Origin: Carex sylvatica
Lineage: Eukaryota > Streptophyta > Magnoliopsida > Poales > Cyperaceae
NCBI GenBank assembly: GCA_964058845.1
Contig: CAXKVR010000062.1
Location: forward strand, 1 to 64,000
DNA: 64,000 nucleotides
Direction: 5' to 3'
Shown piece by piece: positions 1-34,987 of this stretch. How positions within the stretch are numbered: position 1 is the first letter of the stretch; each line of letters starts with the position of its first letter. The notes under the pieces are model-generated. The model worked only from the letters and a program-made list of their open reading frames with translations, did no database searches and had not been told where the DNA came from. Both the position numbers and the translations under genes were made by a program.

Positions 1-215
1 ATATTGCCTAGGTGGTAAAATTGCAAAATGACCTTTTCATTTTTTCAAAGGTTTTTATAACTCCAGAGTTTTTGGACTTTAATTTGTGTTGTGCTTGTGC
101 CTAGTAGTTTTTTGAGTTAAATTCCATGACTCTTTTATGGACTGTCTTTCCAATTCAATATTAACTATTCACAAAAAGAGAATTGCATATGACTTATTGA
201 ATCTCAATGTGATAG

Positions 216-9289: not shown

Positions 9290-10300
9290 ATGAATTTATA
9301 AATATACATGTGTTTATCTTGATCCCCTTCTTTTTCCTTTTCTGTTATTGAGAAAAATATCAAAAAATATGATAATATATAAAAGGATTAATAGTGACAA
9401 GTTCTATATAAGAAAGTATATTAAGAAATAATCATGAGATTAGATGTTGCATTACATCCTCTCATTGATTATCTTATTATATAAAGCTTGATATGGAACT
9501 AAATTAAAATGTTGAAATCATGGACTTATTTAGGAATTGATGTTGCTTTCATCTTCCTACATATTTTGTTCTTTTAAAATGCCTCTCTTCAATAATAGTG
9601 AAATTTCAAGGACTTATTTGCATAAATATTTGACAGAGAGCAAGTGAAATAGAGCCATGATCATGCTCTAGGATTGGATGCTCAGTGATAGTCACTAAAT
9701 AAGTAATTTGTGCAAATTGAAGGACTTGCATGCATATATCATGTTACTGGTACAAAGGAGATCATGATCCATTACCAGACCTTGACCAAAAATTGATTAT
9801 ATATATGTGCATATAGTCACCAGGATGATAGCAAGCTTGCACCAGCCTTGTACCTAAATTATAGCTATTGAGTGCTATACTAGTACCATATATGCACCAA
9901 ATGACATGGTCTGACAGATCAGTCAGTGCAGACTGATCTGTCACTCAAACCAAAAATTCAAATTAACAGGTAGATAACAGACTTAAAAACAATCAGCCGA
10001 TGATAGCATCAATGGAATCCTGACAATTTCACGATCACAGACATACCCTTGGTTAGCGTCGCCGTGGCCAGACTCAGTTTGTCAGACACGAACCCTAATC
10101 CAATAACGGTTTAACATGGGTTCTAAAGCATGTGCATAGATCTTGAAGCAAATGGGATGGATCCAAAGGCCTATATTCAAAAATATGAACCAACGGTCCT
10201 CTGACAGAGAGGGACCCACTTGTCAGTTATTCAAATGATTAAAGATGATCTGGCACGAATCTTAAAGCTCATTTAAACCAAATCCAAGCTTCTACACAGA
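9290..10300. repeat. decayed dispersed repeat, right copy of a direct pair
   Basis: Partner of the repeat at 5,000-6,840. The block 10,020-10,280 is the best-preserved part. It stops where the A-rich tract begins. Confidence 0.5.
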
Positions 10301-10302
10301 AT

Positions 10303-10578
10303 TTAAAAAAATAAAAAATTTAAAAAAATAAAAAATTTAAAAAACAGAATTTAAAAAACAGAAATTAAAAAACAGAATTTTAAAAAAAAAATTAAAAAAA
10401 TAGAAATTAAAAAACAGAATTTGAAAAACAGAAATTAAAAAATAAAATTAAAAAAATAAAATTTAAAAAACAAAATAAAAAAATAAAATTTAAAAAACAG
10501 AAATTAAAACAGAAATTAAAAAATCAGAAATTAAAAAACAGAATAAAAAAAGAAGGGGAAATTTAAAAATTTTGAAAT
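10303..10578. repeat. A-rich low-complexity tract
   Basis: Repeats of aaatttaaaaaacag-like units with almost no C or G make a degenerate simple repeat of about 270 bp. It directly adjoins a CGGGTA-rich transposon fragment and may be part of it. The minus-strand open frames across this tract are compositional artefacts. Confidence 0.8.
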
Positions 10579-10579
10579 T

Positions 10580-10865
10580 GAAAAAAAACAGGTACGGGTA
10601 CACGGGTATACGGAAACGGGTATATGGGCACGGGTACACAGGTATACGGGCAGGGGCACGCGTACTCGGGTATACGGGCAGGGGCACGGGCACGGATGCG
10701 GATACATGGGTTCACGGGAACGGGCACTAGGGTATACGGGTACAGGTAATCCGGTTGGGGTATGGTTGGGTTTTATTCCAAAAGGGCGTACCCTACCTGT
10801 TTTATTCCCGTACCCATGTACCCGACCTATACCCAGGCTCGGGCACGGGCGGGTCAAGTACGGGC
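10580..10865. mobile_element. CGGGTA-rich hAT-like element, truncated at the array edge
   Basis: Dense variants of cgggtacacgggtatacgg fill the left half and the reverse phrase (cccgtacccatgtacccgac) the right half, as in the elements at 30,676-30,988 and 41,749-42,296. Compared with those copies, the right terminus (gcgg...tttgcaacccacta) is missing. The sequence changes at gggcgg to the exon-1 end of array unit 1. No target duplication can be recognised. Confidence 0.6.
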
Positions 10866-10945
10866 GGAACAACATCTACCTTAAAAACGTTGGCATAGGC
10901 TCTGATGAATCTAGGGTATTCAATTCCTAAAGCTTCCGAAGAAGT
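10864..10945 (-). pseudogene. remnant of NYN exon 1 in array unit 1
   Basis: The minus strand keeps only the end of the exon-1 reading (EALGIEYPRFIRAYAN..FKVD) and then runs into the CGGGTA-rich element. About 165 bp found in all other units, covering the ATG and the first 45 codons, is deleted: the sequence jumps from the exon (gcttccgaagaa) to the 5' UTR (gttctctctgtgaag). No exon 2 follows, so this copy is dead. Confidence 0.75.
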
Positions 10946-11503
10946 TCTCTCTGTGAAGAAGAAGAAGAACAACAACAACAAGAAGAGAGGAGGCGGGAGG
11001 AGGGAGAGAGAGAAAATAGAGGAGGCGGGAGGAGGGAAAGAGAGAGAGAATGAAGCTCTGCTGGCCTAGTTTAACAGAAAATTGGGTTTATCTTAATCGG
11101 CCCATTCAGCCCGGTCGCCTAATATGGGTTGTCCACTAAATAAATAATTTATCAAAGAAACAAATAGTAGTCCATAATTGTGTGACGAAGATTTTGTAGA
11201 CCATTTGTAGACAAAAGGACTGACAGCAAAAAAACCAATTGTCTTTAAATTCATTGGATATCGAATTTTTAATAGTTAAAATATTTTCGTTCACATGGAG
11301 AGACAACTGTGCGTTTGCCTTCCACGGGCAAACACGACCACCGCATCAACTTAAACTTAAAGAGAATGTTTTAATGTAATAAAAATAATATAAAATGTTT
11401 ATCCTGTTTTAAACCGGTTTTTTTAAAACCGAGTTATATTTTTAATGAAAACAAAACTGGTCCATTAAATCGTGTGGTTCAATAGTAACTAGAAACACAT
11501 TCA

Positions 11504-13054
11504 TTATCCATCAAAAGATACATTCAACTGACCATACAAAGAATTGTCTCGCTCCCCACTTGAGACTTGAGGATGTTGCACGCTAACATTACGTTGTACT
11601 TTTTTCGTCTGAGATGTTGTATCGTCCATCCGAGATTGGTGTCGCCTATTACGAGGAGTAGATTGGCAGGCGGGGGGTTCTGTGAGATCCAATTAAGGAT
11701 GTCGTTCTCGAAATAGTTAACAATTTCATGTCTCTGACCTCTGAAATTAAGAGAGAAATCACATAAATAATCTTGTATTCACAAGTGTAATTGTCTCTTA
11801 CAGAGCCTGTATATATGTATGCTGTTACAATTGGTACGGTAATTACATGTTTACCATTCCTCTTAACCATAATCTGTTACAAACCATCAGGCTAATTGTA
11901 ACTATTAGTTATATACATTTGACTGGTCAACATTCTAACTAATTGACTCTGTTAATTGTTATATTGTTCACAAAATGTTTCAGTATTCATTGTAATGTCT
12001 TTCATTTGAATTAATTAAATAAATAAGAAAAAGAACCGATTCAGTACAGAATATGCTATGTGTGTGCACTAGTAAACATTCTTGTGCCAAGCACACTATA
12101 ACTGTGCAGTTCTAACTTTTGCACCGACTAAGACTAATCAATTGTTTATAATTACGTAAAAATACTAATAAATGGAATATCAAGTGCAGGTATATTCAGT
12201 GTGTTGTACTCTAATTGTGCATGATTTGGGATCATTTCAAGATCTGTAGATATGGCCTTGCTTGAGATTATTTTTATGGTTGGTACTGTACCAGTATGGG
12301 TATTGTTGGCCCTCCCTTTGCTATATATGCATGAATGGCTGGTGCAGTCACAAGAGGGTTGGTACAAGGACAATGCACAACACTTAATGCCTATATGCAA
12401 GCTGTTACAAACTTTTAGGCCTATATGCTGACGAAATATTTTAAAAGTAAGAATTGAAAATCGTGCAGACAAAATGAAAATTTAAATTTAAAATAATTTT
12501 TCGCTAGATAAGAAAGTCCAATGTTGACTTTGAAATATGTCCTGAGTTCGCTAAGAATTGAAACCGCATCGAAAATACGAAGTTCTGGACCTTTATAGAT
12601 CCAGTGCGTTCGCACTGGTGGTGAGTGCGGATGGTTAATCCGCACTGACTCCAGTTCTTTTTTCGAAATCTTACTAAGTCCTGAGTGCGGGTGTCTTGAC
12701 CCGCACTGAATTTCAATGCATACGCATTAGGCTCGGACTTTTCTTGATTAAATGTCGTTTTGATAAAAAATTGACTAAGTACTGAGTGCGTCCGCACTCA
12801 TGAATTTCTTGTGTCATCCAAAGCGGAACAGCATCTACCTTAAAAATATTGGCATAGGCTCTGAGGAATCTAGGGTATTCAATTCCTAAAGCTTCCAAAG
12901 AAGACCCAATGAAATTTTAGACCAGAGATGGATCGCCATTTTTAGGGACCGAGCACTGCATATCCCAGAACGCAAAAGACTTCACGCTATGCATCGACCG
13001 AACCAGGCTCAGGTGAACAGCCGATCGGGGTTTCATCAAGAGAAAGGGAAACAT
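11504..13054 (-). pseudogene. NYN-nuclease-like pseudogene, array copy 1
   Basis: Reading from ATG 13,054: a basic, Met/Ser-rich leader resembling an organelle-targeting peptide, then VKSFAFWDMQCSVPKNGDP, which aligns with the NYN start (V.T.VWWDIENCPVPKG.D). A TAA at 12,917-12,919 ends this frame after 45 codons, but the same frame continues as NFIGSSLEALGIEYPRF and ANIFKVDAVPLWMTQEIHEC, which fits the domain as far as the ALSSTG-like helix. After the hairpins and an intron, exon 2 (11,738 down to 11,575) gives ILNWISQNPPPANLLLIIGD and TIQHLRRKKYNVMLACN. A deletion then joins it out of frame (TGA 11,524-11,526) to the last exon, whose own frame ends at 11,504. The acidic residues of the family are degraded (WDIEN to WDMQ; AYGD to AYAN; GDRDF to GDTNL). 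A functional product is unlikely unless the 45-residue leader peptide is used. Confidence 0.7.
12601..12799. repeat. hairpin cluster of the array unit (first instance)
   Basis: Five stem-loops lie within 200 bp: 12,601-12,618 (CCAGTGCG/CGCACTGG), 12,624-12,646 (AGTGCGGAT/ATCCGCACT), 12,684-12,707 (AGTGCGGGT/ACCCGCACT), 12,715-12,728 (AATGC/GCATT) and 12,784-12,799 (GAGTGCG/CGCACTC). Loops are 2-6 nt and four of the stems share AGTGCG. The cluster recurs every 2,108 bp through the array. It sits between NYN exon 1 and the intron, where the family would be expected to continue coding. Confidence 0.9.
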
Positions 13055-13187
13055 AGCTAAGTTCTCTCTGTGAAGAGGAAGAAGAACAAGAAGAGAGGAG
13101 GCGGGAGGAGGGAGAGAGAGAAAATAGAGGAGGCGGGAGGAGGGAAAGAGAGAGAGAATGAAGCTCTGCTGGCCTAGTTTAACAGAA

Positions 13188-13230
13188 AATTGGGTTTATC
13201 TTAATCGGCCCATTCAGCCCGGTCGCCTAA
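13188..13230 (-). promoter_or_regulatory. Site II-like promoter elements upstream of each array gene copy
   Basis: On the minus strand this reads GGGCTGAATGGGCCGATTAA, two TGGGCY-type (Site II) motifs about 150 bp upstream of the ATG at 13,054. A CT-rich 5' UTR (13,060-13,165) lies between. Site II pairs are common in plant promoters of ribosomal and mitochondrial-protein genes. The same block recurs at 2,108-bp steps in the array. Transcription is an inference. Confidence 0.45.
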
Positions 13231-13611
13231 TATGGGTTGTCCACTAAATAAATAATTTATCAAAGAAACAAATAGTAGTCCATAATTGTGTGACGAAGAT
13301 TTTGTAGACCATTTGTAGACAAAAGGACTGACAGCAAAAAAACCAATTGTCTTTAAATTCATTGGATATCGAATTTTTAATAGTTAAAATATTTTCGTTC
13401 ACATGGAGAGACAACTGTGCGTTTGCCTTCCACGGGCAAACACGACCACCGCATCAACTTAAACTTAAAGAGAATGTTTTAATGTAATAAAAATAATATA
13501 AAATGTTTATCCTGTTTTAAACCGGTTTTTTTAAAACCGAGTTATATTTTTAATGAAAACAAAACTGGTCCATTAAATCGTGTGGTTCAATAGTAACTAG
13601 AAACACATTCA

Positions 13612-15162
13612 TTATCCATCAAAAGATACATTCAACTGACCATACAAAGAATTGTCTCGCTCCCCACTTGAGACTTGAGGATGTTGCACGCTAACATTAC
13701 GTTGTACTTTTTTCGTCTGAGATGTTGTATCGTCCATCCGAGATTGGTGTCGCCTATTACGAGGAGTAGATTGGCAGGCGGGGGGTTCTGTGAGATCCAA
13801 TTAAGGATGTCGTTCTCGAAATAGTTAACAATTTCATGTCTCTGACCTCTGAAATTAAGAGAGAAATCACATAAATAATCTTGTATTCACAAGTGTAATT
13901 GTCTCTTACAGAGCCTGTATATATGTAGGCTGTTACAATTGGTACGGTAATTACATGTTTACCATTCCTCTTAACCATAATCTGTTACAAACCATCAGGC
14001 TAATTGTAACTATTAGTTATATACATTTGACTGGTCAACATTCTAACTAATTGACTCTGTTAATTGTTATATTGTTCACAAAATGTTTCAGTATTCATTG
14101 TAATGTCTTTCATTTGAATTAATTAAATAAATAAGAAAAAGAACCGATTCAGTACAGAATATGCTATGTGTGTGCACTAGTAAACATTCTTGTGCCAAGC
14201 ACACTATAACTGTGCAGTTCTAACTTTTGCACCGACTAAGACTAATCAATTGTTTATAATTACGTAAAAATACTAATAAATGGAATATCAAGTGCAGGTA
14301 TATTCAGTGTGTTGTACTCTAATTGTGCATGATTTGGGATCATTTCAAGATCTGTAGATATGGCCTTGCTTGAGATTATTTTTATGGTTGGTACTGTACC
14401 AGTATGGGTATTGTTGGCCCTCCCTTTGCTATATATGCATGAATGGCTGGTGCAGTCACAAGAGGGTTGGTACAAGGACAATGCACAACACTTAATGCCT
14501 ATATGCAAGCTGTTACAAACTTTTAGGCCTATATGCTGACGAAATATTTTAAAAGTAAGAATTGAAAATCGTGCAGACAAAATGAAAATTTAAATTTAAA
14601 ATAATTTTTCGCTAGATAAGAAAGTCCAATGTTGACTTTGAAATATGTCCTGAGTTCGCTAAGAATTGAAACCGCATCGAAAATACGAAGTTCTGGACCT
14701 TTATAGATCCAGTGCGTTCGCACTGGTGGTGAGTGCGGATGGTTAATCCGCACTGACTCCAGTTCTTTTTTCGAAATCTTACTAAGTCCTGAGTGCGGGT
14801 GTCTTGACCCGCACTGAATTTCAATGCATACGCATTAGGCTCGGACTTTTCTTGATTAAATGTCGTTTTGATAAAAAATTGACTAAGTACTGAGTGCGTC
14901 CGCACTCATGAATTTCTTGTGTCATCCAAAGCGGAACAGCATCTACCTTAAAAATATTGGCATAGGCTCTGAGGAATCTAGGGTATTCAATTCCTAAAGC
15001 TTCCAAAGAAGACCCAATGAAATTTTAGACCAGAGATGGATCGCCATTTTTAGGGACCGAGCACTGCATATCCCAGAACGCAAAAGACTTCACGCTATGC
15101 ATCGACCGAACCAGGCTCAGGTGAACAGCCGATCGGGGTTTCATCAAGAGAAAGGGAAACAT
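13612..15162 (-). pseudogene. NYN-nuclease-like pseudogene, array copy 2
   Basis: Same structure as copy 1 (ATG 15,162; TAA stop in exon 1; exon 2 at 13,846-13,683; deletion fusion to the last exon). It carries the gtaggctg variant at about 13,926 that is otherwise seen only in units 8, 9 and 10, so an edge-type allele sits next to unit 1. Confidence 0.7.
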
Positions 15163-15719
15163 AGCTAAGTTCTCTCTGTGAAGAGGAAGAAGAACAAGAA
15201 GAGAGGAGGCGGGAGGAGGGAGAGAGAGAAAATAGAGGAGGCGGGAGGAGGGAAAGAGAGAGAGAATGAAGCTCTGCTGGCCTAGTTTAACAGAAAATTG
15301 GGTTTATCTTAATCGGCCCATTCAGCCCGGTCGCCTAATATGGGTTGTCCACTAAATAAATAATTTATCAAAGAAACAAATAGTAGTCCATAATTGTGTG
15401 ACGAAGATTTTGTAGACCATTTGTAGACAAAAGGACTGACAGCAAAAAAACCAATTGTCTTTAAATTCATTGGATATCGAATTTTTAATAGTTAAAATAT
15501 TTTCGTTCACATGGAGAGACAACTGTGCGTTTGCCTTCCACGGGCAAACACGACCACCGCATCAACTTAAACTTAAAGAGAATGTTTTAATGTAATAAAA
15601 ATAATATAAAATGTTTATCCTGTTTTAAACCGGTTTTTTTAAAACCGAGTTATATTTTTAATGAAAACAAAACTGGTCCATTAAATCGTGTGGTTCAATA
15701 GTAACTAGAAACACATTCA

Positions 15720-17270
15720 TTATCCATCAAAATATACATTCAACTGACCATACAAAGAATTGTCTCGCTCCCCACTTGAGACTTGAGGATGTTGCACGCT
15801 AACATTACGTTGTACTTTTTTCGTCTGAGATGTTGTATCGTCCATCCGAGATTGGTGTCGCCTATTACGAGGAGTAGATTGGCAGGCGGGGGGTTCTGTG
15901 AGATCCAATTAAGGATGTCGTTCTCGAAATAGTTAACAATTTCATGTCTCTGACCTCTGAAATTAAGAGAGAAATCACATAAATAATCTTGTATTCACAA
16001 GTGTAATTGTCTCTTACAGAGCCTGTATATATGTATGCTGTTACAATTGGTACGGTAATTACATGTTTACCATTCCTCTTAACCATAATCTGTTACAAAC
16101 CATCAGGCTAATTGTAACTATTAGTTATATACATTTGACTGGTCAACATTCTAACTAATTGACTCTGTTAATTGTTATATTGTTCACAAAATGTTTCAGT
16201 ATTCATTGTAATGTCTTTCATTTGAATTAATTAAATAAATAAGAAAAAGAACCGATTCAGTACAGAATATGCTATGTGTGTGCACTAGTAAACATTCTTG
16301 TGCCAAGCACACTATAACTGTGCAGTTCTAACTTTTGCACCGACTAAGACTAATCAATTGTTTATAATTACGTAAAAATACTAATAAATGGAATATCAAG
16401 TGCAGGTATATTCAGTGTGTTGTACTCTAATTGTGCATGATTTGGGATCATTTCAAGATCTGTAGATATGGCCTTGCTTGAGATTATTTTTATGGTTGGT
16501 ACTGTACCAGTATGGGTATTGTTGGCCCTCCCTTTGCTATATATGCATGAATGGCTGGTGCAGTCACAAGAGGGTTGGTACAAGGACAATGCACAACACT
16601 TAATGCCTATATGCAAGCTGTTACAAACTTTTAGGCCTATATGCTGACGAAATATTTTAAAAGTAAGAATTGAAAATCGTGCAGACAAAATGAAAATTTA
16701 AATTTAAAATAATTTTTCGCTAGATAAGAAAGTCCAATGTTGACTTTGAAATATGTCCTGAGTTCGCTAAGAATTGAAACCGCATCGAAAATACGAAGTT
16801 CTGGACCTTTATAGATCCAGTGCGTTCGCACTGGTGGTGAGTGCGGATGGTTAATCCGCACTGACTCCAGTTCTTTTTTCGAAATCTTACTAAGTCCTGA
16901 GTGCGGGTGTCTTGACCCGCACTGAATTTCAATGCATACGCATTAGGCTCGGACTTTTCTTGATTAAATGTCGTTTTGATAAAAAATTGACTAAGTACTG
17001 AGTGCGTCCGCACTCATGAATTTCTTGTGTCATCCAAAGCGGAACAGCATCTACCTTAAAAATATTGGCATAGGCTCTGAGGAATCTAGGGTATTCAATT
17101 CCTAAAGCTTCCAAAGAAGACCCAATGAAATTTTAGACCAGAGATGGATCGCCATTTTTAGGGACCGAGCACTGCATATCCCAGAACGCAAAAGACTTCA
17201 CGCTATGCATCGACCGAACCAGGCTCAGGTGAACAGCCGATCGGGGTTTCATCAAGAGAAAGGGAAACAT
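15720..17270 (-). pseudogene. NYN-nuclease-like pseudogene, array copy 3
   Basis: Same structure. It is the first of four adjacent copies sharing aaaatatac instead of aaaagatac next to the last-exon stop (Tyr instead of Ser in that frame). It looks like part of a homogenised central block. Confidence 0.7.
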
Positions 17271-17827
17271 AGCTAAGTTCTCTCTGTGAAGAGGAAGAAG
17301 AACAAGAAGAGAGGAGGCGGGAGGAGGGAGAGAGAGAAAATAGAGGAGGCGGGAGGAGGGAAAGAGAGAGAGAATGAAGCTCTGCTGGCCTAGTTTAACA
17401 GAAAATTGGGTTTATCTTAATCGGCCCATTCAGCCCGGTCGCCTAATATGGGTTGTCCACTAAATAAATAATTTATCAAAGAAACAAATAGTAGTCCATA
17501 ATTGTGTGACGAAGATTTTGTAGACCATTTGTAGACAAAAGGACTGACAGCAAAAAAACCAATTGTCTTTAAATTCATTGGATATCGAATTTTTAATAGT
17601 TAAAATATTTTCGTTCACATGGAGAGACAACTGTGCGTTTGCCTTCCACGGGCAAACACGACCACCGCATCAACTTAAACTTAAAGAGAATGTTTTAATG
17701 TAATAAAAATAATATAAAATGTTTATCCTGTTTTAAACCGGTTTTTTTAAAACCGAGTTATATTTTTAATGAAAACAAAACTGGTCCATTAAATCGTGTG
17801 GTTCAATAGTAACTAGAAACACATTCA

Positions 17828-19378
17828 TTATCCATCAAAATATACATTCAACTGACCATACAAAGAATTGTCTCGCTCCCCACTTGAGACTTGAGGATGT
17901 TGCACGCTAACATTACGTTGTACTTTTTTCGTCTGAGATGTTGTATCGTCCATCCGAGATTGGTGTCGCCTATTACGAGGAGTAGATTGGCAGGCGGGGG
18001 GTTCTGTGAGATCCAATTAAGGATGTCGTTCTCGAAATAGTTAACAATTTCATGTCTCTGACCTCTGAAATTAAGAGAGAAATCACATAAATAATCTTGT
18101 ATTCACAAGTGTAATTGTCTCTTACAGAGCCTGTATATATGTATGCTGTTACAATTGGTACGGTAATTACATGTTTACCATTCCTCTTAACCATAATCTG
18201 TTACAAACCATCAGGCTAATTGTAACTATTAGTTATATACATTTGACTGGTCAACATTCTAACTAATTGACTCTGTTAATTGTTATATTGTTCACAAAAT
18301 GTTTCAGTATTCATTGTAATGTCTTTCATTTGAATTAATTAAATAAATAAGAAAAAGAACCGATTCAGTACAGAATATGCTATGTGTGTGCACTAGTAAA
18401 CATTCTTGTGCCAAGCACACTATAACTGTGCAGTTCTAACTTTTGCACCGACTAAGACTAATCAATTGTTTATAATTACGTAAAAATACTAATAAATGGA
18501 ATATCAAGTGCAGGTATATTCAGTGTGTTGTACTCTAATTGTGCATGATTTGGGATCATTTCAAGATCTGTAGATATGGCCTTGCTTGAGATTATTTTTA
18601 TGGTTGGTACTGTACCAGTATGGGTATTGTTGGCCCTCCCTTTGCTATATATGCATGAATGGCTGGTGCAGTCACAAGAGGGTTGGTACAAGGACAATGC
18701 ACAACACTTAATGCCTATATGCAAGCTGTTACAAACTTTTAGGCCTATATGCTGACGAAATATTTTAAAAGTAAGAATTGAAAATCGTGCAGACAAAATG
18801 AAAATTTAAATTTAAAATAATTTTTCGCTAGATAAGAAAGTCCAATGTTGACTTTGAAATATGTCCTGAGTTCGCTAAGAATTGAAACCGCATCGAAAAT
18901 ACGAAGTTCTGGACCTTTATAGATCCAGTGCGTTCGCACTGGTGGTGAGTGCGGATGGTTAATCCGCACTGACTCCAGTTCTTTTTTCGAAATCTTACTA
19001 AGTCCTGAGTGCGGGTGTCTTGACCCGCACTGAATTTCAATGCATACGCATTAGGCTCGGACTTTTCTTGATTAAATGTCGTTTTGATAAAAAATTGACT
19101 AAGTACTGAGTGCGTCCGCACTCATGAATTTCTTGTGTCATCCAAAGCGGAACAGCATCTACCTTAAAAATATTGGCATAGGCTCTGAGGAATCTAGGGT
19201 ATTCAATTCCTAAAGCTTCCAAAGAAGACCCAATGAAATTTTAGACCAGAGATGGATCGCCATTTTTAGGGACCGAGCACTGCATATCCCAGAACGCAAA
19301 AGACTTCACGCTATGCATCGACCGAACCAGGCTCAGGTGAACAGCCGATCGGGGTTTCATCAAGAGAAAGGGAAACAT
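17828..19378 (-). pseudogene. NYN-nuclease-like pseudogene, array copy 4
   Basis: Same structure and the same central-block variant as copy 3. No difference from copies 3, 5 and 6 was seen in any open frame. Confidence 0.7.
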
Positions 19379-19935
19379 AGCTAAGTTCTCTCTGTGAAGA
19401 GGAAGAAGAACAAGAAGAGAGGAGGCGGGAGGAGGGAGAGAGAGAAAATAGAGGAGGCGGGAGGAGGGAAAGAGAGAGAGAATGAAGCTCTGCTGGCCTA
19501 GTTTAACAGAAAATTGGGTTTATCTTAATCGGCCCATTCAGCCCGGTCGCCTAATATGGGTTGTCCACTAAATAAATAATTTATCAAAGAAACAAATAGT
19601 AGTCCATAATTGTGTGACGAAGATTTTGTAGACCATTTGTAGACAAAAGGACTGACAGCAAAAAAACCAATTGTCTTTAAATTCATTGGATATCGAATTT
19701 TTAATAGTTAAAATATTTTCGTTCACATGGAGAGACAACTGTGCGTTTGCCTTCCACGGGCAAACACGACCACCGCATCAACTTAAACTTAAAGAGAATG
19801 TTTTAATGTAATAAAAATAATATAAAATGTTTATCCTGTTTTAAACCGGTTTTTTTAAAACCGAGTTATATTTTTAATGAAAACAAAACTGGTCCATTAA
19901 ATCGTGTGGTTCAATAGTAACTAGAAACACATTCA

Positions 19936-21486
19936 TTATCCATCAAAATATACATTCAACTGACCATACAAAGAATTGTCTCGCTCCCCACTTGAGACTT
20001 GAGGATGTTGCACGCTAACATTACGTTGTACTTTTTTCGTCTGAGATGTTGTATCGTCCATCCGAGATTGGTGTCGCCTATTACGAGGAGTAGATTGGCA
20101 GGCGGGGGGTTCTGTGAGATCCAATTAAGGATGTCGTTCTCGAAATAGTTAACAATTTCATGTCTCTGACCTCTGAAATTAAGAGAGAAATCACATAAAT
20201 AATCTTGTATTCACAAGTGTAATTGTCTCTTACAGAGCCTGTATATATGTATGCTGTTACAATTGGTACGGTAATTACATGTTTACCATTCCTCTTAACC
20301 ATAATCTGTTACAAACCATCAGGCTAATTGTAACTATTAGTTATATACATTTGACTGGTCAACATTCTAACTAATTGACTCTGTTAATTGTTATATTGTT
20401 CACAAAATGTTTCAGTATTCATTGTAATGTCTTTCATTTGAATTAATTAAATAAATAAGAAAAAGAACCGATTCAGTACAGAATATGCTATGTGTGTGCA
20501 CTAGTAAACATTCTTGTGCCAAGCACACTATAACTGTGCAGTTCTAACTTTTGCACCGACTAAGACTAATCAATTGTTTATAATTACGTAAAAATACTAA
20601 TAAATGGAATATCAAGTGCAGGTATATTCAGTGTGTTGTACTCTAATTGTGCATGATTTGGGATCATTTCAAGATCTGTAGATATGGCCTTGCTTGAGAT
20701 TATTTTTATGGTTGGTACTGTACCAGTATGGGTATTGTTGGCCCTCCCTTTGCTATATATGCATGAATGGCTGGTGCAGTCACAAGAGGGTTGGTACAAG
20801 GACAATGCACAACACTTAATGCCTATATGCAAGCTGTTACAAACTTTTAGGCCTATATGCTGACGAAATATTTTAAAAGTAAGAATTGAAAATCGTGCAG
20901 ACAAAATGAAAATTTAAATTTAAAATAATTTTTCGCTAGATAAGAAAGTCCAATGTTGACTTTGAAATATGTCCTGAGTTCGCTAAGAATTGAAACCGCA
21001 TCGAAAATACGAAGTTCTGGACCTTTATAGATCCAGTGCGTTCGCACTGGTGGTGAGTGCGGATGGTTAATCCGCACTGACTCCAGTTCTTTTTTCGAAA
21101 TCTTACTAAGTCCTGAGTGCGGGTGTCTTGACCCGCACTGAATTTCAATGCATACGCATTAGGCTCGGACTTTTCTTGATTAAATGTCGTTTTGATAAAA
21201 AATTGACTAAGTACTGAGTGCGTCCGCACTCATGAATTTCTTGTGTCATCCAAAGCGGAACAGCATCTACCTTAAAAATATTGGCATAGGCTCTGAGGAA
21301 TCTAGGGTATTCAATTCCTAAAGCTTCCAAAGAAGACCCAATGAAATTTTAGACCAGAGATGGATCGCCATTTTTAGGGACCGAGCACTGCATATCCCAG
21401 AACGCAAAAGACTTCACGCTATGCATCGACCGAACCAGGCTCAGGTGAACAGCCGATCGGGGTTTCATCAAGAGAAAGGGAAACAT
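19936..21486 (-). pseudogene. NYN-nuclease-like pseudogene, array copy 5
   Basis: Same structure and central-block variant. It is indistinguishable from copies 3, 4 and 6 in its open frames, which suggests very recent copying or gene conversion. Confidence 0.7.
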
Positions 21487-22043
21487 AGCTAAGTTCTCTC
21501 TGTGAAGAGGAAGAAGAACAAGAAGAGAGGAGGCGGGAGGAGGGAGAGAGAGAAAATAGAGGAGGCGGGAGGAGGGAAAGAGAGAGAGAATGAAGCTCTG
21601 CTGGCCTAGTTTAACAGAAAATTGGGTTTATCTTAATCGGCCCATTCAGCCCGGTCGCCTAATATGGGTTGTCCACTAAATAAATAATTTATCAAAGAAA
21701 CAAATAGTAGTCCATAATTGTGTGACGAAGATTTTGTAGACCATTTGTAGACAAAAGGACTGACAGCAAAAAAACCAATTGTCTTTAAATTCATTGGATA
21801 TCGAATTTTTAATAGTTAAAATATTTTCGTTCACATGGAGAGACAACTGTGCGTTTGCCTTCCACGGGCAAACACGACCACCGCATCAACTTAAACTTAA
21901 AGAGAATGTTTTAATGTAATAAAAATAATATAAAATGTTTATCCTGTTTTAAACCGGTTTTTTTAAAACCGAGTTATATTTTTAATGAAAACAAAACTGG
22001 TCCATTAAATCGTGTGGTTCAATAGTAACTAGAAACACATTCA

Positions 22044-23594
22044 TTATCCATCAAAATATACATTCAACTGACCATACAAAGAATTGTCTCGCTCCCCACT
22101 TGAGACTTGAGGATGTTGCACGCTAACATTACGTTGTACTTTTTTCGTCTGAGATGTTGTATCGTCCATCCGAGATTGGTGTCGCCTATTACGAGGAGTA
22201 GATTGGCAGGCGGGGGGTTCTGTGAGATCCAATTAAGGATGTCGTTCTCGAAATAGTTAACAATTTCATGTCTCTGACCTCTGAAATTAAGAGAGAAATC
22301 ACATAAATAATCTTGTATTCACAAGTGTAATTGTCTCTTACAGAGCCTGTATATATGTATGCTGTTACAATTGGTACGGTAATTACATGTTTACCATTCC
22401 TCTTAACCATAATCTGTTACAAACCATCAGGCTAATTGTAACTATTAGTTATATACATTTGACTGGTCAACATTCTAACTAATTGACTCTGTTAATTGTT
22501 ATATTGTTCACAAAATGTTTCAGTATTCATTGTAATGTCTTTCATTTGAATTAATTAAATAAATAAGAAAAAGAACCGATTCAGTACAGAATATGCTATG
22601 TGTGTGCACTAGTAAACATTCTTGTGCCAAGCACACTATAACTGTGCAGTTCTAACTTTTGCACCGACTAAGACTAATCAATTGTTTATAATTACGTAAA
22701 AATACTAATAAATGGAATATCAAGTGCAGGTATATTCAGTGTGTTGTACTCTAATTGTGCATGATTTGGGATCATTTCAAGATCTGTAGATATGGCCTTG
22801 CTTGAGATTATTTTTATGGTTGGTACTGTACCAGTATGGGTATTGTTGGCCCTCCCTTTGCTATATATGCATGAATGGCTGGTGCAGTCACAAGAGGGTT
22901 GGTACAAGGACAATGCACAACACTTAATGCCTATATGCAAGCTGTTACAAACTTTTAGGCCTATATGCTGACGAAATATTTTAAAAGTAAGAATTGAAAA
23001 TCGTGCAGACAAAATGAAAATTTAAATTTAAAATAATTTTTCGCTAGATAAGAAAGTCCAATGTTGACTTTGAAATATGTCCTGAGTTCGCTAAGAATTG
23101 AAACCGCATCGAAAATACGAAGTTCTGGACCTTTATAGATCCAGTGCGTTCGCACTGGTGGTGAGTGCGGATGGTTAATCCGCACTGACTCCAGTTCTTT
23201 TTTCGAAATCTTACTAAGTCCTGAGTGCGGGTGTCTTGACCCGCACTGAATTTCAATGCATACGCATTAGGCTCGGACTTTTCTTGATTAAATGTCGTTT
23301 TGATAAAAAATTGACTAAGTACTGAGTGCGTCCGCACTCATGAATTTCTTGTGTCATCCAAAGCGGAACAGCATCTACCTTAAAAATATTGGCATAGGCT
23401 CTGAGGAATCTAGGGTATTCAATTCCTAAAGCTTCCAAAGAAGACCCAATGAAATTTTAGACCAGAGATGGATCGCCATTTTTAGGGACCGAGCACTGCA
23501 TATCCCAGAACGCAAAAGACTTCACGCTATGCATCGACCGAACCAGGCTCAGGTGAACAGCCGATCGGGGTTTCATCAAGAGAAAGGGAAACAT
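22044..23594 (-). pseudogene. NYN-nuclease-like pseudogene, array copy 6
   Basis: Same structure. It is the last of the four copies carrying the aaaatatac variant. Confidence 0.7.
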
Positions 23595-24151
23595 AGCTAA
23601 GTTCTCTCTGTGAAGAGGAAGAAGAACAAGAAGAGAGGAGGCGGGAGGAGGGAGAGAGAGAAAATAGAGGAGGCGGGAGGAGGGAAAGAGAGAGAGAATG
23701 AAGCTCTGCTGGCCTAGTTTAACAGAAAATTGGGTTTATCTTAATCGGCCCATTCAGCCCGGTCGCCTAATATGGGTTGTCCACTAAATAAATAATTTAT
23801 CAAAGAAACAAATAGTAGTCCATAATTGTGTGACGAAGATTTTGTAGACCATTTGTAGACAAAAGGACTGACAGCAAAAAAACCAATTGTCTTTAAATTC
23901 ATTGGATATCGAATTTTTAATAGTTAAAATATTTTCGTTCACATGGAGAGACAACTGTGCGTTTGCCTTCCACGGGCAAACACGACCACCGCATCAACTT
24001 AAACTTAAAGAGAATGTTTTAATGTAATAAAAATAATATAAAATGTTTATCCTGTTTTAAACCGGTTTTTTTAAAACCGAGTTATATTTTTAATGAAAAC
24101 AAAACTGGTCCATTAAATCGTGTGGTTCAATAGTAACTAGAAACACATTCA

Positions 24152-25702
24152 TTATCCATCAAAAGATACATTCAACTGACCATACAAAGAATTGTCTCGC
24201 TCCCCACTTGAGACTTGAGGATGTTGCACGCTAACATTACGTTGTACTTTTTTCGTCTGAGATGTTGTATCGTCCATCCGAGATTGGTGTCGCCTATTAC
24301 GAGGAGTAGATTGGCAGGCGGGGGGTTCTGTGAGATCCAATTAAGGATGTCGTTCTCGAAATAGTTAACAATTTCATGTCTCTGACCTCTGAAATTAAGA
24401 GAGAAATCACATAAATAATCTTGTATTCACAAGTGTAATTGTCTCTTACAGAGCCTGTATATATGTATGCTGTTACAATTGGTACGGTAATTACATGTTT
24501 ACCATTCCTCTTAACCATAATCTGTTACAAACCATCAGGCTAATTGTAACTATTAGTTATATACATTTGACTGGTCAACATTCTAACTAATTGACTCTGT
24601 TAATTGTTATATTGTTCACAAAATGTTTCAGTATTCATTGTAATGTCTTTCATTTGAATTAATTAAATAAATAAGAAAAAGAACCGATTCAGTACAGAAT
24701 ATGCTATGTGTGTGCACTAGTAAACATTCTTGTGCCAAGCACACTATAACTGTGCAGTTCTAACTTTTGCACCGACTAAGACTAATCAATTGTTTATAAT
24801 TACGTAAAAATACTAATAAATGGAATATCAAGTGCAGGTATATTCAGTGTGTTGTACTCTAATTGTGCATGATTTGGGATCATTTCAAGATCTGTAGATA
24901 TGGCCTTGCTTGAGATTATTTTTATGGTTGGTACTGTACCAGTATGGGTATTGTTGGCCCTCCCTTTGCTATATATGCATGAATGGCTGGTGCAGTCACA
25001 AGAGGGTTGGTACAAGGACAATGCACAACACTTAATGCCTATATGCAAGCTGTTACAAACTTTTAGGCCTATATGCTGACGAAATATTTTAAAAGTAAGA
25101 ATTGAAAATCGTGCAGACAAAATGAAAATTTAAATTTAAAATAATTTTTCGCTAGATAAGAAAGTCCAATGTTGACTTTGAAATATGTCCTGAGTTCGCT
25201 AAGAATTGAAACCGCATCGAAAATACGAAGTTCTGGACCTTTATAGATCCAGTGCGTTCGCACTGGTGGTGAGTGCGGATGGTTAATCCGCACTGACTCC
25301 AGTTCTTTTTTCGAAATCTTACTAAGTCCTGAGTGCGGGTGTCTTGACCCGCACTGAATTTCAATGCATACGCATTAGGCTCGGACTTTTCTTGATTAAA
25401 TGTCGTTTTGATAAAAAATTGACTAAGTACTGAGTGCGTCCGCACTCATGAATTTCTTGTGTCATCCAAAGCGGAACAGCATCTACCTTAAAAATATTGG
25501 CATAGGCTCTGAGGAATCTAGGGTATTCAATTCCTAAAGCTTCCAAAGAAGACCCAATGAAATTTTAGACCAGAGATGGATCGCCATTTTTAGGGACCGA
25601 GCACTGCATATCCCAGAACGCAAAAGACTTCACGCTATGCATCGACCGAACCAGGCTCAGGTGAACAGCCGATCGGGGTTTCATCAAGAGAAAGGGAAAC
25701 AT
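24152..25702 (-). pseudogene. NYN-nuclease-like pseudogene, array copy 7
   Basis: Same structure, back to the aaaagatac allele. Otherwise it matches the central consensus. Confidence 0.7.
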
Positions 25703-26259
25703 AGCTAAGTTCTCTCTGTGAAGAGGAAGAAGAACAAGAAGAGAGGAGGCGGGAGGAGGGAGAGAGAGAAAATAGAGGAGGCGGGAGGAGGGAAAGAGAG
25801 AGAGAATGAAGCTCTGCTGGCCTAGTTTAACAGAAAATTGGGTTTATCTTAATCGGCCCATTCAGCCCGGTCGCCTAATATGGGTTGTCCACTAAATAAA
25901 TAATTTATCAAAGAAACAAATAGTAGTCCATAATTGTGTGACGAAGATTTTGTAGACCATTTGTAGACAAAAAGACTGACAGCAAAAAAACCAATTGTCT
26001 TTAAATTCATTGGATATCGAATTTTTAATAGTTAAAATATTTTCGTTCACATGGAGAGACAACTGTGCGTTTGCCTTCCACGGGCAAACACGACCACCGC
26101 ATCAACTTAAACTTAAAGAGAATGTTTTAATGTAATAAAAATAATATAAAATGTTTATCCTGTTTTAAACCGGTTTTTTTAAAACCGAGTTATATTTTTA
26201 ATGAAAACAAAACTGGTCCATTAAATCGTGTGGTTCAATAGTAACTAGAAACACATTCA

Positions 26260-27810
26260 TTATCCATCAAAAGATACATTCAACTGACCATACAAAGAAT
26301 TGTCTCGCTCCCCACTTGAGACTTGAGGATGTTGCACGCTAACATTACGTTGTACTTTTTTCGTCTGAGATGTTGTATCGTCCATCCGAGATTGGTGTCG
26401 CCTATTACGAGGAGTAGATTGGCAGGCGGGGGGTTCTGTGAGATCCAATTAAGGATGTCGTTCTCGAAATAGTTAACAATTTCATGTCTCTGACCTCTGA
26501 AATTAAGAGAGAAATCACATAAATAATCTTGTATTCACAAGTGTAATTGTCTCTTAAAGAGCCTGTATATTTGTAGGCTGTTACAATTGGTACGGTAATT
26601 ACATGTTTACCAATCCTCTTAACCATAATCTGTTACAAACCATCAGGCTAATTGTAACTATTAGTTATATACATTTGACTGGTCAACATTCTAACTAATT
26701 GACTCTGTTAATTGTTATATTGTTCACAAAATGTTTCAGTATTCATTGTAATGTCTTTCATTTGAATTAATTAAATAAATAAGAAAAAGAACCGATTCAG
26801 TACAGAATATGCTATGTGTGTGCACTAGTAAACATTCTTGTGCCAAGCACACTATAACTGTGCAGTTCTAACTTTTGCACTGACTAAGACTAATCAATTG
26901 TTTATAATTACGTAAAAATACTAATAAATGGAATATCAAGTGCAGGTATATTCAGTGTGTTGTACTCTAATTGTGCATGATTTGGGATCATTTCAAGATC
27001 TGTAGATATGGCCTTGCTTGAGATTATTTTTATGGTTGGTACTGTACCAGTATGGGTATTGTTGGCCCTCCCTTTGCTATATATGCATGAATGGCTGGTG
27101 CAGTCACAAGAGGGTTGGTACAAGGACAATGCACAACACTTAATGCCTATATGCAAGCTGTTACAAACTTTTAGGCCTATATGCTGACGAAATATTTTAA
27201 AAGTAAGAATTGAAAATCGTGCAGACAAAATGAAAATTTAAATTTAAAATAATTTTTCGCTAGATAAGAAAGTCCAATGTTGACTTTGAAATATGTCCTG
27301 AGTTCGCTAAGAATTGAAACCGCATCGAAAATACGAAGTTCTGGACCTATATAGATCCAGTGCGTTCGCACTGGTGGTGAGTGCGGATGGTTAATCCGCA
27401 CTGACTCCAGTTCTTTTTTCGAAATCTTACTAAGTCCTGAGTGCGGGTGTCTTGACCCGCACTGAATTTCAATGCATACGCATTAGGCTCGGACTTTTCT
27501 TGATTAAATGTCGTTTTGATAAAAAATTGACTAAGTACTGAGTGCGTCCGCACTCATGAATTTCTTGTGTCATCCAAAGCGGAACAGCATCTACCTTAAA
27601 AATATTGGCATAGGCTCTGATGAATCTAGGGTATTCAATTCCTAAAGCTTCCAAAGAAGACCCAATGAAATTTTAGACCAGAGATGGATCGTCATTTTTA
27701 GGGACCGAGCACTGCATATCCCAGAACGCAAAAGACTTCACGCTATGCATCGACCGAACCAGGCTCAGGTGAACAGCCGATCGGGGTTTCATCAAGAGAA
27801 AGGGAAACAT
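26260..27810 (-). pseudogene. NYN-nuclease-like pseudogene, array copy 8
   Basis: Same structure but with private changes: cttaaagagcctgtatatttg at about 26,555-26,575, accaatcc at about 26,609, gcactgact at about 26,878 and ctatatagatcc at about 27,347. Its exon 1 lies in unit 9 and carries the edge-type tgatgaatc allele at about 27,619 and gatcgtcat at about 27,688. Confidence 0.7.
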
Positions 27811-28367
27811 AGCTAAGTTCTCTCTGTGAAGAGGAAGAAGAACAAGAAGAGAGGAGGCGGGAGGAGGGAGAGAGAGAAAATAGAGGAGGCGGGAGGAGGG
27901 AAAGAGAGAGAGAATGAAGCTCTGCTGGCCTAGTTTAACAGAAAATTGGGTTTATCTTAATCGGCCCATTCAGCCCGGTCGCCTAATATGGGTTGTCCAC
28001 TAAATAAATAATTTATCAAAGAAACAAATAGTAGTCCATAATTGTGTGACGAAGATTTTGTAGACCATTTGTAGACAAAAGGACTGACAGCAAAAAAACC
28101 AATTGTCTTTAAATTCATTGGATATCGAATTTTTAATAGTTAAAATATTTTCGTTCACATGGAGAGACAACTGTGCGTTTGCCTTCCACGGGCAAACACG
28201 ACCACCGCATCAACTTAAACTTAAAGAGAATGTTTTAATGTAATAAAAATAATATAAAATGTTTATCCTGTTTTAAACCGGTTTTTTTAAAACCGAGTTA
28301 TTTTTTTAATGAAAACAAAACTGGTCCATTAAATCGTGTGGTTCAATAGTAACTAGAAACACATTCA

Positions 28368-29918
28368 TTATTCATCAAAAGATACATTCAACTGACCATA
28401 CAAAGAATTGTCTCGCTCCCCACTTGAGACTTGAGGATGTTGCACGCTAACATTACGTTGTACTTTTTTCGTCTGAGATGTTGTATCGTCCATCCGAGAT
28501 TGGTGTCGCCTATTACGAGGAGTAGATTGGCAGGCGGGGGGTTCTGTGAGATCCAATTAAGGATGTCGTTCTCGAAATAGTTAACAATTTCATGTCTCTG
28601 ACCTCTGAAATTAAGAGAGAAATCACATAAATAATCTTGTATTCACAAGTGTAATTGTCTCTTACAGAGCCTGTATATATGTAGGCTGTTACAATTGGTA
28701 CGGTAATTACATGTTTACCATTCCTCTTAACCATAATCTGTTACAAACCATCAGGCTAATTGTAACTATTAGTTATATACATTTGATTGGTCAACATTCT
28801 AACTAATTGACTCTGTTAATTGTTATATTGTTCACAAAATGTTTCAGTATTCATTGTAATGTCTTTCATTTGAATTAATTAAATAAATAAGAAAAAGAAC
28901 CGATTCAGTACAGAATATGCTATGTGTGTGCACTAGTAAACATTCTTGTGCCAAGCACACTATAACTGTGCAGTTCTAACTTTTGCACCGACTAAGACTA
29001 ATCAATTGTTTATAATTACGTAAAAATACTAATAAATGGAATATCAAGTGCAGGTATATTCAGTGTGTTGTACTCTAATTGTGCATGATTTGGGATCATT
29101 TCAAGATCTGTAGATATGGCCTTGCTTGAGATTATTTTTATGGTTGGTACTGTACCAGTATGGGTATTGTTGGCCCTCCCTTTGCTATATATGCATGAAT
29201 GACTGGTGCAGTCACAAGAGGGTTGGTACAAGGACAATGCACAACACTTAATGCCTATATGCAAGCTGTTACAAACTTTTAGGCCTATATGCTGACGAAA
29301 TATTTTAAAAGTAAGAATTGAAAATCGTGCAGACAAAATGAAAATTTAAATTTAAAATAATTTTTCTCTAGATAAGAAAGTCCAATGTTGACTTTGAAAT
29401 ATGTCCTGAGTTCGCTAAGAATTGAAACCGCATCGAAAATACGAAGTTCTGGACCTTTATAGATCCAGTGCGTTCGCACTGGTGGTGAGTGCGGATGGTT
29501 AATCCGCACTGACTCCAGTTCTTTTTTCGAAATCTTACTAAGTCCTGAGTGCGGGTGTCTTGACCCACACTGAATTTCAATGCATACGCATTAGGCTCGG
29601 ACTTTTCTTGATTAAATGTCGTTTTGATAAAAAATTGACTAAGTACTGAGTGCGTCCGCACTCATGAATTTCTTGTGTCATCCAAAGCGGAACAGCATCT
29701 ACCTTAAAAATATTGGCATAGGCTCTGATGAATCTAGGGTATTCAATTCCTAAAGCTTCCAAAGAAGACCCAATGAAATTTTAGACCAGAGATGGATCGC
29801 CATTTTTAGGGACCGAGCACTGCATATCCCAGAACGCAAAAGACTTCACGCTATGCATCGACCGAACCAGGCTCAGGTGAACAGCCGATCGGGGTTTCAT
29901 CAAGAGAAAGGGAAACAT
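28368..29918 (-). pseudogene. NYN-nuclease-like pseudogene, array copy 9
   Basis: Same structure with several changes: attcatcaaaag at the stop end, gattggtc at about 28,786, gaatgactgg at about 29,197 and ttctctaga at about 29,365. A G-to-A change in gacccacac (about 29,566) breaks the third hairpin stem. Exon 1 lies in unit 10, whose 5' UTR has only one gaggaggcgggaggaggga block where other units have two. Confidence 0.7.
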
Positions 29919-30392
29919 AGCTAAGTTCTCTCTGTGAAGAGGAAGAAGAACAAGAAGAGAGGAGGCGGGAGGAGGGAGAGAGAGAGAGAATGAAGCTCTG
30001 CTGGCCTAGTTTAACAGAAAATTGGGTTTATCTTAATCGGCCCATTCAGCCCGGTCGCCTAATATGGGTTGTCCACTAAATAAATAATTTATCAAAGAAA
30101 CAAATAGTAGTCCATAATTGTGTGACGAAGATTTTGTAGATCATTTGTAGACAAAAGGACTGACAGCAAAAAAACCAATTGGCTTTAAATTCATTGGATA
30201 TCGAATTTTTTCATAGTTAAAATATTTTCGTTCACATGGAGAGAAACAACTGTGCGTTTTAATGGAAGAAAAATAATATAAAATGTTTAACCTGTTTTAA
30301 ACCGGTTTTTTTAAAACCGAGTTATTTTTTTTAATGAAAACAAAACTGGTCCATTAAATCGTGTGGTTCAATAGTAACTAGAAACACATCCA

Positions 30393-31613
30393 TTATTCAT
30401 CAAAAGATACATTCAACTGATCATACAAATAATTGTCTCGCTCCAAATCCTTAATTTCTCGACCCTCTTTTGGCACCCTCGGTACATCCAACAGATAATA
30501 GCACAATTCGGGGAACTCGAATCCGTTGATGAGGAAAACATCTCAGGACCTAACAGAACCACACTAAATGTCTAAATTAATTGCGTAGACCCCAAAAGAA
30601 TACCACCTTCCTCAGTACTACCTTTTGGAGATCGATGGACAGAATGTCACATAAGGATTATAGGATGGCAATACATAGGGTGGGTACCCCCAAAAGCCAC
30701 AGGTACGGGTACACGGGTATACGGGCACGGGTACATGGGTATAGGATACTCGGGTATACGGGCATGGGTACGGGTACACGGGTTCACGGGCACAGGCACT
30801 AGAGTATACGGGTACGGGTAAACCGGTCTGGGTATGGTCGGGTTTTCTCCCGAAAAGGCGTGCCCTTCTTGTTTTATGCCCGTACCCGTGTACCCGACCT
30901 ACACTCGGGCTCGGGCACGGGTACCCCGGGTAGCGGGCACGAGCGGGTCGGGTACGGGCGGCCCAGGTCGAGTTTTTGCAACCCACTAAGCAGTGGTAGC
31001 TGCAGGTGTAGAAGCGACAATGGATGGAGCTTTGGTAGGAGTAGTGGACTATTTTTTGGAATTAGTTTTCTTCATGCCCTGGGCATCAAAAGTACCAGAT
31101 TATCATAATTTAATCACTAAATTAAAGCGGAATTTTTGGGACGAGGCAAGTATATTGCCGGTGTTGTTTCGGTTGGTGGTATTTAGACGGCCATGAGGCG
31201 AGGAGGTCCTTAGTAATACAATTTATGTAAACTGAACTCAAAACAAATTGATGTTTATGTTTCATAATGCTTATTATCTTTTTTATAGTCGTCCCTATTG
31301 CCAACCTCCCTCCCTTTCAGTGATGGATACAACCTCGCATCTGAAACCTCATTAAATTTAAATGGAATACAGCTCGTCCCGTTAGCAAGAGCAGCCCACG
31401 GCCAAGTCAATGTGCATGCTTTGATGAGGAGCTTGTTTCCCCTCAGGCTGTTGCACGCTAACATTACGTTGTACTTTTTTCGTCTGAGATGTTGTATCGT
31501 CCATCCGAGATTGGTGTCGCCTATTATGAGGAGTAGATTGGCAGGCGGGGGGTTCTGTGAGATCCAATTAAGGACGTCTTTCTCGAAATAGTTAACAATT
31601 TCATGTCTCTGAC
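30393..31613 (-). pseudogene. less-deleted 3' part of the NYN-nuclease-like gene (unit 10)
   Basis: Here exon 2 (from 31,613 downward) continues past the point where the other units are cut: YNVMLACNSLRGNKLLIKAC, then TLTWPWAALANGTSCIPFKF and NEVSD. This aligns with the exon at 216-550 (STLMWPWISLAKGED.TPLQF) and so restores the end of the NYN domain. Further down the minus strand a Thr/Ser/Ala-rich linker (STTPTKAPSIVASTPAATT) is readable near 31,000-31,075, then a CGGGTA-rich transposon (30,676-30,988), then a last exon reading FLINGFEFPELCYYLLDVPR and ending YDQLNVSFDE at a TAA (30,393-30,395). The same end is found in the other units, so they derive from this form by an internal deletion. 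No exon 1 exists upstream (above 32,717), and the copy is interrupted, so it is also a pseudogene. Confidence 0.7.
30676..30988. mobile_element. CGGGTA-rich hAT-like element inside array unit 10
   Basis: It begins TAGGGTGGGTACCCC and ends TTTTTGCAACCCACTA. The reverse complement of the end (TAGTGGGTTGCAAA) resembles the end of the element at 41,749-42,296. The interior is the same (cgggta)n pattern, forward then reversed. The flanking 8-mers do not match, so the target duplication has decayed or been lost by recombination. Long open frames across it are compositional. Confidence 0.65.
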
Positions 31614-32504
31614 CTCTGAAATTAAGAGAGAAATCACAGAAATAATCTTGTATTCACAAGTGTAATTGTCTCTTACAGAGCCTGTATATATGTAGGCTGT
31701 TACAATAGGTACGGTAATTACATGTTTACCATTCCTCTTAACCATAATCTGTTACAAACCATCAGGCTAATTGTAACTATTAGTTATATACATTTGACTG
31801 GTCAACATTCTAACTAATTGACTCTGTTAATTGTTATATTGTTCACAAAATGTTTCAGTATTCATTGTAATGTCTTTCATTTGAATTAATTAAATAAATA
31901 AGAAAAAGAACCGATTCAGATGAAGCCATGTGTGTACACTAGTCCACAGTACAGAATATGCTATGTGTGTACACTAGTAAACATTCTTGTGCCAAGCACA
32001 CTATAACTGTGCAGTTCTAACTTTTCACCGACTAAGACTAATCAATTTTTTATAATTACGTAAAAATACTAATAAATGGAATATCAAGTGCAGGTATATT
32101 CAGTGTGTTGTACTCTAATTGTGCATGATTTGGGATCATTTCAAGATCTGTAGATATGGCCTTGCTTGGGATTATTTTTATGGTTGATACTGTACCAGTA
32201 TGGGTATTGTTGGCCCTCCCTTTGCTATATATGCATGAATGGCTGGTGCAGTCACAAGAGGGTTGGTACAAGGACAATGCACAACACTTAATGCCTATAT
32301 GCAAGCTGTTACAAACTTTTAGGCCTATATGCTGACGAAATATTTTAAAAGTAAGAATTGAAAATCGTGCAGACGAAATGAAAATTTAAATTTAAAATAA
32401 TTTTTCGCTAGATAAGAAAGTCCAATGTTGACTTTGAAATATGTCCTGAGTTCGCTAAGAATTGAAACCGCATCGAAAATACGAAGTTCTGGACCTTTAT
32501 AGAT

Positions 32505-32856
32505 CCAGTGCGTTCGCACTGATGGTGAGTGCGGATGGTTAATCCGCACTGACTCCAGTTCTTTTTTCGAAATCTTACTAAGTCCTGAGTGCGGGTGTCT
32601 TGACCCGCACTGAATTTCAATGCATACGCATTAGGCTCGGACTTTTCTTGATTAAGTGTCGTTTTGATAAAAAATTGACTAAGTACTGAGTGCGTCCGCA
32701 CTCCTGAATTTCTTGTGATTTTCTGAATTCCTAAAATATGTACAAGTGATGAGTGCGGGTGACTGACCCGCACTGAATATGAGTGCGGGTGGCCGATCCG
32801 CACTGAATATGAGTGCGGGTGGCCGACCCGCACTGATATTGAGTGCGCCCGCACTC
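32505..32856. repeat. extended hairpin cluster at the right edge of the array
   Basis: Unit 10 has the same five hairpins (the first with one changed base). Four more follow beyond the end of the array homology, in strict 30-bp steps starting at 32,751, 32,781, 32,811 and 32,841. The stems are AGTGCGGGT/ACCCGCACT or close variants with 5-nt loops, the last being GAGTGCG/CGCACTC with a 2-nt loop. This gives nine stem-loops in about 350 bp. Confidence 0.9.
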
Positions 32857-32899
32857 GGGGTGTTTTTAACTCAAAATCCAGATTTTCTTTTTCCCTTCT

Positions 32900-34979: not shown

Positions 34980-34987
34980 GGTGGGGG

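Follow-up and report, generated by a model that had tools for sequence, protein, structure and literature searches.

A tandem array of an apparently chimeric NYN gene and LTR unit in the sedge Carex sylvatica

Some human macrosatellite units carry reading frames. Human macrosatellites that have been described include TAF11-Like, SST1, PRR20, ZAV and D4Z4, as presented in PMC3018141. Satellites derived from dispersed repeats, from pieces of LTR retrotransposons or from an intron are on record in PMC7004042, and LTR elements, of which Cassandra is an example, have been reported in tandem arrays (PMC7215508). In models, unequal recombination was found to build tandem repeats from random sequence (Smith 1976, cited in PMC7004042), and recombination alone was found to fail to explain satellite persistence (Walsh 1987, cited in PMC7004042), a point that, in the form in which it is cited there, counts against unequal exchange as a complete account. 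The array reported here lies in a window of 64,000 nucleotides, this being the whole stretch of DNA that was analysed (contig CAXKVR010000062.1 of assembly GCA_964058845.1, positions 1 to 64,000 of the forward strand).

Organisation of the array

At window 10864-32717, units followed one another head to tail with an exact period of 2,108 bp, as determined from letter identity at that lag and from BLAST with one unit as the query; unit positions are given in the frame of window 17000-19107. Both methods bore out the initial annotation, which had proposed a ten-unit array of a 2,108-bp module over this interval, the two edge units being counted: a left-truncated U1, eight full units U2-U9 and a variant U10. 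Letter identity at lag 2108 was 0.99-1.00 across the 500-base bins 11001-27001, dropped to 0.82 in the edge bin 27501, and lay at 0.20-0.34 in all remaining bins. U1 (10864..12783, plus strand) was recovered by BLAST as 10864-10944 (unit 40-120) and, after a gap, 10964-12783 (unit 289-2108); its 81-bp left piece was 94% identical to the unit and, by eye, had several bases as in contig C237 where the unit differs. U2-U9 (12784..29647, plus strand) were complete 2,108-bp units according to lag identity, BLAST and the variant table, and the rightmost unit, U10 (29648..32717, plus strand), consisted of 29648-30444 (unit 1-880), an extra 1 kb and 31445-32717 (unit 895-2108 followed by 1-30).

The high identity claimed for the amplification was likewise confirmed, with 20 variable columns among nine copies in register, the central units U3, U4, U5 and U6 letter-identical (0 differences among them) and 4, 7 and 9 differences from the consensus in the left copy, U8 and U9, respectively. 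The longest block free of a unit-distinguishing base measured about 10.2 kb, bounded by variants in U2 at 13928 and in U7 at 24165, and the copy number should be read as that of the assembly. The locus has the units of at least about 1 kb, the head-to-tail order and the high identity of a large-unit array, and among the matches listed in the 64-Mb, possibly incomplete assembly it kept to the one or few loci typical of a macrosatellite, with the gene part forming no further array among them. Classical satellites form long arrays that are abundant in the genome; a single array of about 22 kb among the matches listed did not correspond to this, and the earlier statement that the module is not a classical satellite held.

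Gene fragment and LTR fragment within the unit

Each unit is, to judge from its sequence, a chimera of a minus-strand NYN gene piece and an LTR fragment. On the minus strand of the unit, positions 453-273 were CT-rich upstream or 5' UTR sequence, 272 to about 33 exon 1 and about 1066-899 a partial exon 2, and the intron between the two exons spanned the unit boundary. Exon 1 of the representative unit (17004..17270, minus strand) aligned with the joined C237 exons over residues 1-89 at 80% identity and contained one TAA in frame; LTR takes the place of its 3' end, and the reported match extends about 27 bases into that LTR. The adjoining CT-rich segment (17272..17452, minus strand) was common to the C237 gene by sequence comparison, and next to it lay segment X (17453..17897, unit 454-898, without strand), for which a query of 17440-17905 gave 11 listed matches, ten in the array and one of 115 bp at 86% on C43. 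The truncated exon 2 (17887..18063, minus strand) covered residues 97-155 of the 206-aa query without an internal stop, and the intron from exon 1 to exon 2 (18066..18753, minus strand) had pieces in common with C237 at 5.4-5.9 kb and 61.2-61.9 kb.

The in-frame TAA of exon 1 was found in 9/9 array copies covering that place and was absent from the C237 copy, so that an intact reading frame of the NYN family was lacking in the array, and in all nine of the units U1-U9 the exon 2 match broke off at residue 155 or 156 of 206. The amplification of a broken minus-strand NYN gene, as first proposed, is upheld by both features. The accompanying claim of two NYN exons fared less evenly: array exon 2 spoke for it when compared with the Pfam model for NYN, reaching 20.9 bits at E 5e-4, which is under the curated cut-off of 24.2, and the two exon 1 pieces alone gave no match to that model, the case for exon 1 coming from its match to the C237 gene, whose joined exons scored 27.7 bits, above the cut-off. 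Synonymous and non-synonymous differences between unit and C237 numbered 5 and 10 in exon 1 and 2 and 10 in exon 2, and those between U10 and C237 in exon 2 numbered 9 and 14, in each case too few to judge selection. A protein search with the 206-aa NYN exons (54 candidates) returned nothing at E 0.001, and a 509-aa query of NYN plus exonuclease-like sequence (7,992 candidates scored), possibly swamped by low-complexity words, also returned nothing at E 0.001; neither result is evidence of absence. As a protein-coding locus, the array most likely does nothing.

The best match of the array gene part was the C237 gene at 5099-6222, and C237 was the only other place of the gene part among the matches listed. 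The overlap of C237 with the window was compared in two stretches: window 1-1909 agreed with C237:151869-153777, and window 7004-7303 with the final 300 bases of that contig, neither showing a mismatch; C237 would most simply be the left neighbour of the window contig. In that case, the NYN gene (5.1-6.2 kb) lies about 157 kb and a partial copy (61.2-61.9 kb) about 101 kb from the array. These two places matched each other piecewise (four main pieces at 90-95%), which points to a region with a history of local duplication. On C237:5099-8537, open stretches 3' of the NYN exons and in the same orientation bore a resemblance to a WRN-type 3'-5' exonuclease; one of the three pieces tested scored to DNA_pol_A_exo1 (E 5e-4, below the cut-off). 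Another NYN gene, more distantly related (38% identity in exon 2 with that of C237) and identical where the end of C237 overlaps, was seen at window 1-1200. Rfam gave one tRNA gene, at window 37739-37812, and no other family in the window, and an LRR kinase at the right end of the window had its best named match in Rhynchospora pubera (93%), followed by Juncus effusus (80%). A GGGTAC-rich dispersed repeat was present at window 10588-10849, to the left of the array, and at 30699-30988 and 42089-42261; it occurred in at least 38 places (42 rows with neighbouring rows merged, 40 of 378 candidates scored), and window 42089-42261 and 30809-30958 both aligned to a single position within one stretch of C237.

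The hairpin cluster of the unit, with its GTGCGG...CCGCAC hairpins, had been listed initially among the minus-strand contents of the module. It belongs to a fragment of about 384 bp (18754..19137, plus strand, start approximate) that extends into the next unit and ends at the junction with exon 1. The corresponding query (unit about 1755-2108 plus 1-30) gave at least 36 matching places beyond C62 and C237, with 39 of 223 candidates scored, and 25/25 of those taken as loci L010-L034 also matched the sequence right of the array from 32308, L014 to 32898 only. Copies started with TGTTACG and ended with GTGTGACA, and 5-bp flanking duplications were present in both of the two copies with both ends, ATACC (3,306 bp) and GATGA (2,725 bp), the first bases of the latter copy being degenerate. 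The copy on C295 (2,641 bp) was followed 11 bases on by TGGTATCAGAGC, presumably a primer binding site of plant type, with gag and aspartyl-protease domains farther on; the family thus showed the flanking duplications of an LTR retrotransposon in 2/2 copies and its primer site, gag and protease on C295. The hairpin cluster is accordingly the 5' part of an LTR that is dispersed in the genome, measures about 2.7 kb and is of putative Ty3/gypsy type, and it is separate from the gene; the name Ty3/gypsy is provisional, with gag, RVP_2 and a Ty3 capsid match below the cut-off as its basis. A genome search with the unit, by which the initial annotation had proposed to recognise an ordinary repeat family, gave a divided answer, the LTR part being dispersed and the gene part, among the matches listed, not.

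Changes on both sides of the hairpin stems were found in 2/47 pairs with a covariation term of -0.02, which gave no support to a conserved RNA structure. The relatives of the hairpin segment occur in 12.6-12.8-kb tandem repeats, and for that reason ribosomal DNA was considered as its source; Rfam was empty in L035, L036 and L038, and the LTR ends with gag and protease decided the matter. A Helitron end was dropped given the LTR ends and flanking duplications. The repeats on C295:1-30000 (L035-L037) had a period of 12,757 bp, were about 99.9% identical and carried one LTR of the array-LTR family each, with a second repeated sequence starting immediately 3' of the protease domain, and those on C456:1-16000 (L038-L039), of about 12,604 bp by match spacing, likewise carried an LTR from this family each. 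A long LTR copy (about 32338..34986, plus strand) bordered the array on the right, its start degenerate and its 3' end truncated. By eye, the units and this copy had in common variants absent from most of 19 further aligned copies, as if the array units and the right-edge LTR descended from one LTR copy.

Unit junction, right-hand unit and proposed history

At the unit junction, LTR sequence ending in AATTTCTTGTG was followed by TC and then by exon 1 beginning with ATCCAAAGCGG, or in wider form CCGCACTCATGAATTTCTTGTG-TC-ATCCAAAGCGG. The LTR at the right edge goes on past CTTGTG, and on C237 the exon 1 sequence extends on ahead of ATCCAAAG; the two sides have little sequence in common at the junction, which gives the join a non-homologous look. 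The palindrome GAGTGCGTCCGCACTC is 14 bases away from it. On its left side, the array begins (unit 40) no more than about 10 bases from this junction, and both array edges may mark the LTR-exon 1 join as the duplication junction; the closeness on the left could be due to chance or to the dispersed repeat, which has its end at that point.

The extra 1,000 bp (30445..31444, without strand; BLAST and C237 comparison) were present in U10 only. The first 254 bases (30445-30698) were assigned to nothing, bases about 255-545 (about 30699-30988) were the dispersed repeat, and bases 545-1000 (about 30989-31444) corresponded to C237:6063-6517 at 94%, that is, to the remaining exon 2 and downstream sequence. 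Exon 2 of U10 (31285..31614, minus strand) covered residues 97-206 without an internal stop, at 86% to the C237 protein, and was the only one among the array units to reach the query end. A foreign origin of the 1 kb was ruled out, since it carries the rest of exon 2 at these DNA and protein identities. U10 differed from the consensus at 27 of 2,036 aligned bases, with 136 gap columns in addition, and at 1 of 368 within its first 400 unit positions, as if that end had recently been exchanged with the array. U10 looks like the progenitor form, from which the other units would differ by a deletion of about 1 kb and by the LTR-exon 1 junction.

We consider it probable that the locus is a young, locally homogenised, macrosatellite-like array of a dead gene fragment and an LTR fragment with the following history. 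A local duplication of the NYN locus would have brought the 5' end of one copy, with exon 1 and upstream sequence, to lie left of the exon 2 and intron that belong to another, and an LTR of Ty3/gypsy type would have come into the intron, adjoining exon 1. An illegitimate exchange may then have joined the LTR at about position 400, beside the short palindrome, to exon 1 and so produced a tandem duplication, after which the left copy would have lost about 1 kb from the interval that separates segment X and exon 2, and the 2,108-bp unit would have resulted. Unequal crossing-over or conversion would have amplified and homogenised this unit, the middle most and the edges least, with the old unit form kept at the right edge. 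The anatomy, the junction letters, the stop, the identity pattern and the longer right unit are observed, and the order of events and the mechanism are what we infer; the LTR-exon 1 junction could also have been made by a deletion within the LTR prior to amplification. No function for the array would be needed and none is supported, and the same would apply to an RNA role of the hairpin stems, in view of the few pairs changed on both sides. The position of the junction near a palindrome and the recurrence of the same LTR family in the C295 and C456 tandem repeats led to the idea that the palindrome-rich 5' part of the LTR is a hotspot of tandem amplification and the locus a satellite in the act of arising, still joined to its progenitor, which we consider unlikely.

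Repetition of one real unit by the assembler would be consistent with the letter identity of U3-U6, but 20 variable columns tell the units apart, both edges are unlike the centre, the right unit is longer and distinct, and the ambiguous stretch of about 10.2 kb is shorter than many long reads, so that an artefact is quite improbable. Small RNAs from unit transcripts that silence the related NYN gene would be in keeping with the identity of about 91-96% between the units and the C237 gene in exon and intron pieces and with the palindromes of the units, but the chance of this is small: all listed unit matches in the window lie on the plus strand, hence without an inverted copy; inverted repeats in the scanned stretch 10300-12000 amounted to two weak pairs (75-76%), and the 2/47 stem pairs changed on both sides argue against such a role as well.

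A mobile element that forms tandem copies, either as a Helitron-like rolling circle or as a gene-capturing retrotransposon, the element in question being the 2,108-bp unit, is suggested by the union of a retrotransposon LTR with gene sequence and by the 12.6-12.8-kb tandem repeats with the same LTR family. It has very little in its favour once it is considered that whole-unit copies outside the locus were absent among the matches listed, that the gene part was found elsewhere only on C237 among them and that the LTR part of the unit ends within the LTR. Some sedges are holocentric, and the centromere units of these plants consist of satellite arrays about as long as the present one. With an array of about 22 kb and an LRR kinase closest by name to Rhynchospora pubera, a centromere-type satellite of the sedge host comes to mind, but a holocentromere repeat should recur often, and one gene-part array among the matches listed in 64 Mb leaves this explanation with a negligible probability.

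Comparison with described tandem repeats

The initial annotation had stated that an NYN-nuclease array of this kind was not known from a description. Neither such an array nor a plant macrosatellite made of a gene piece was found in titles and abstract starts of the open-access papers listed, which leaves absence from print unproven; the force of the statement is reduced by the fact that arrays of this sort are known, given the intron- and retrotransposon-derived arrays and the macrosatellites on record (in PMC7004042 and PMC3018141, as far as these describe them). The value of the array is that it lets the origin of a long-unit tandem repeat be followed stepwise at a single locus: a gene resembling the source is close by, the source LTR is still present, an edge unit resembles the progenitor and the middle is homogenised. 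It is useful to models of satellite origin as one case of a known process.

Like the human macrosatellites as characterised in PMC3018141, the array has large units placed head to tail at one or few loci, some such units containing gene sequence; it differs from them in being a plant array of a truncated, stop-bearing 5' fragment of an NYN gene fused to an LTR. With the satellites considered in PMC7004042 it has in common the tandem amplification of an arbitrary piece of the genome that contains LTR-retrotransposon or intronic sequence, whereas its unit is long and chimeric and forms one array of about 22 kb. The Cassandra arrays, as portrayed in PMC7215508, resemble it in that LTR sequence is tandemly repeated, probably via recombination. 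In contrast to these, the unit of the present array contains an LTR fragment of about 384 bp with no internal region of the element seen, and its junction looks non-homologous rather than LTR-LTR.
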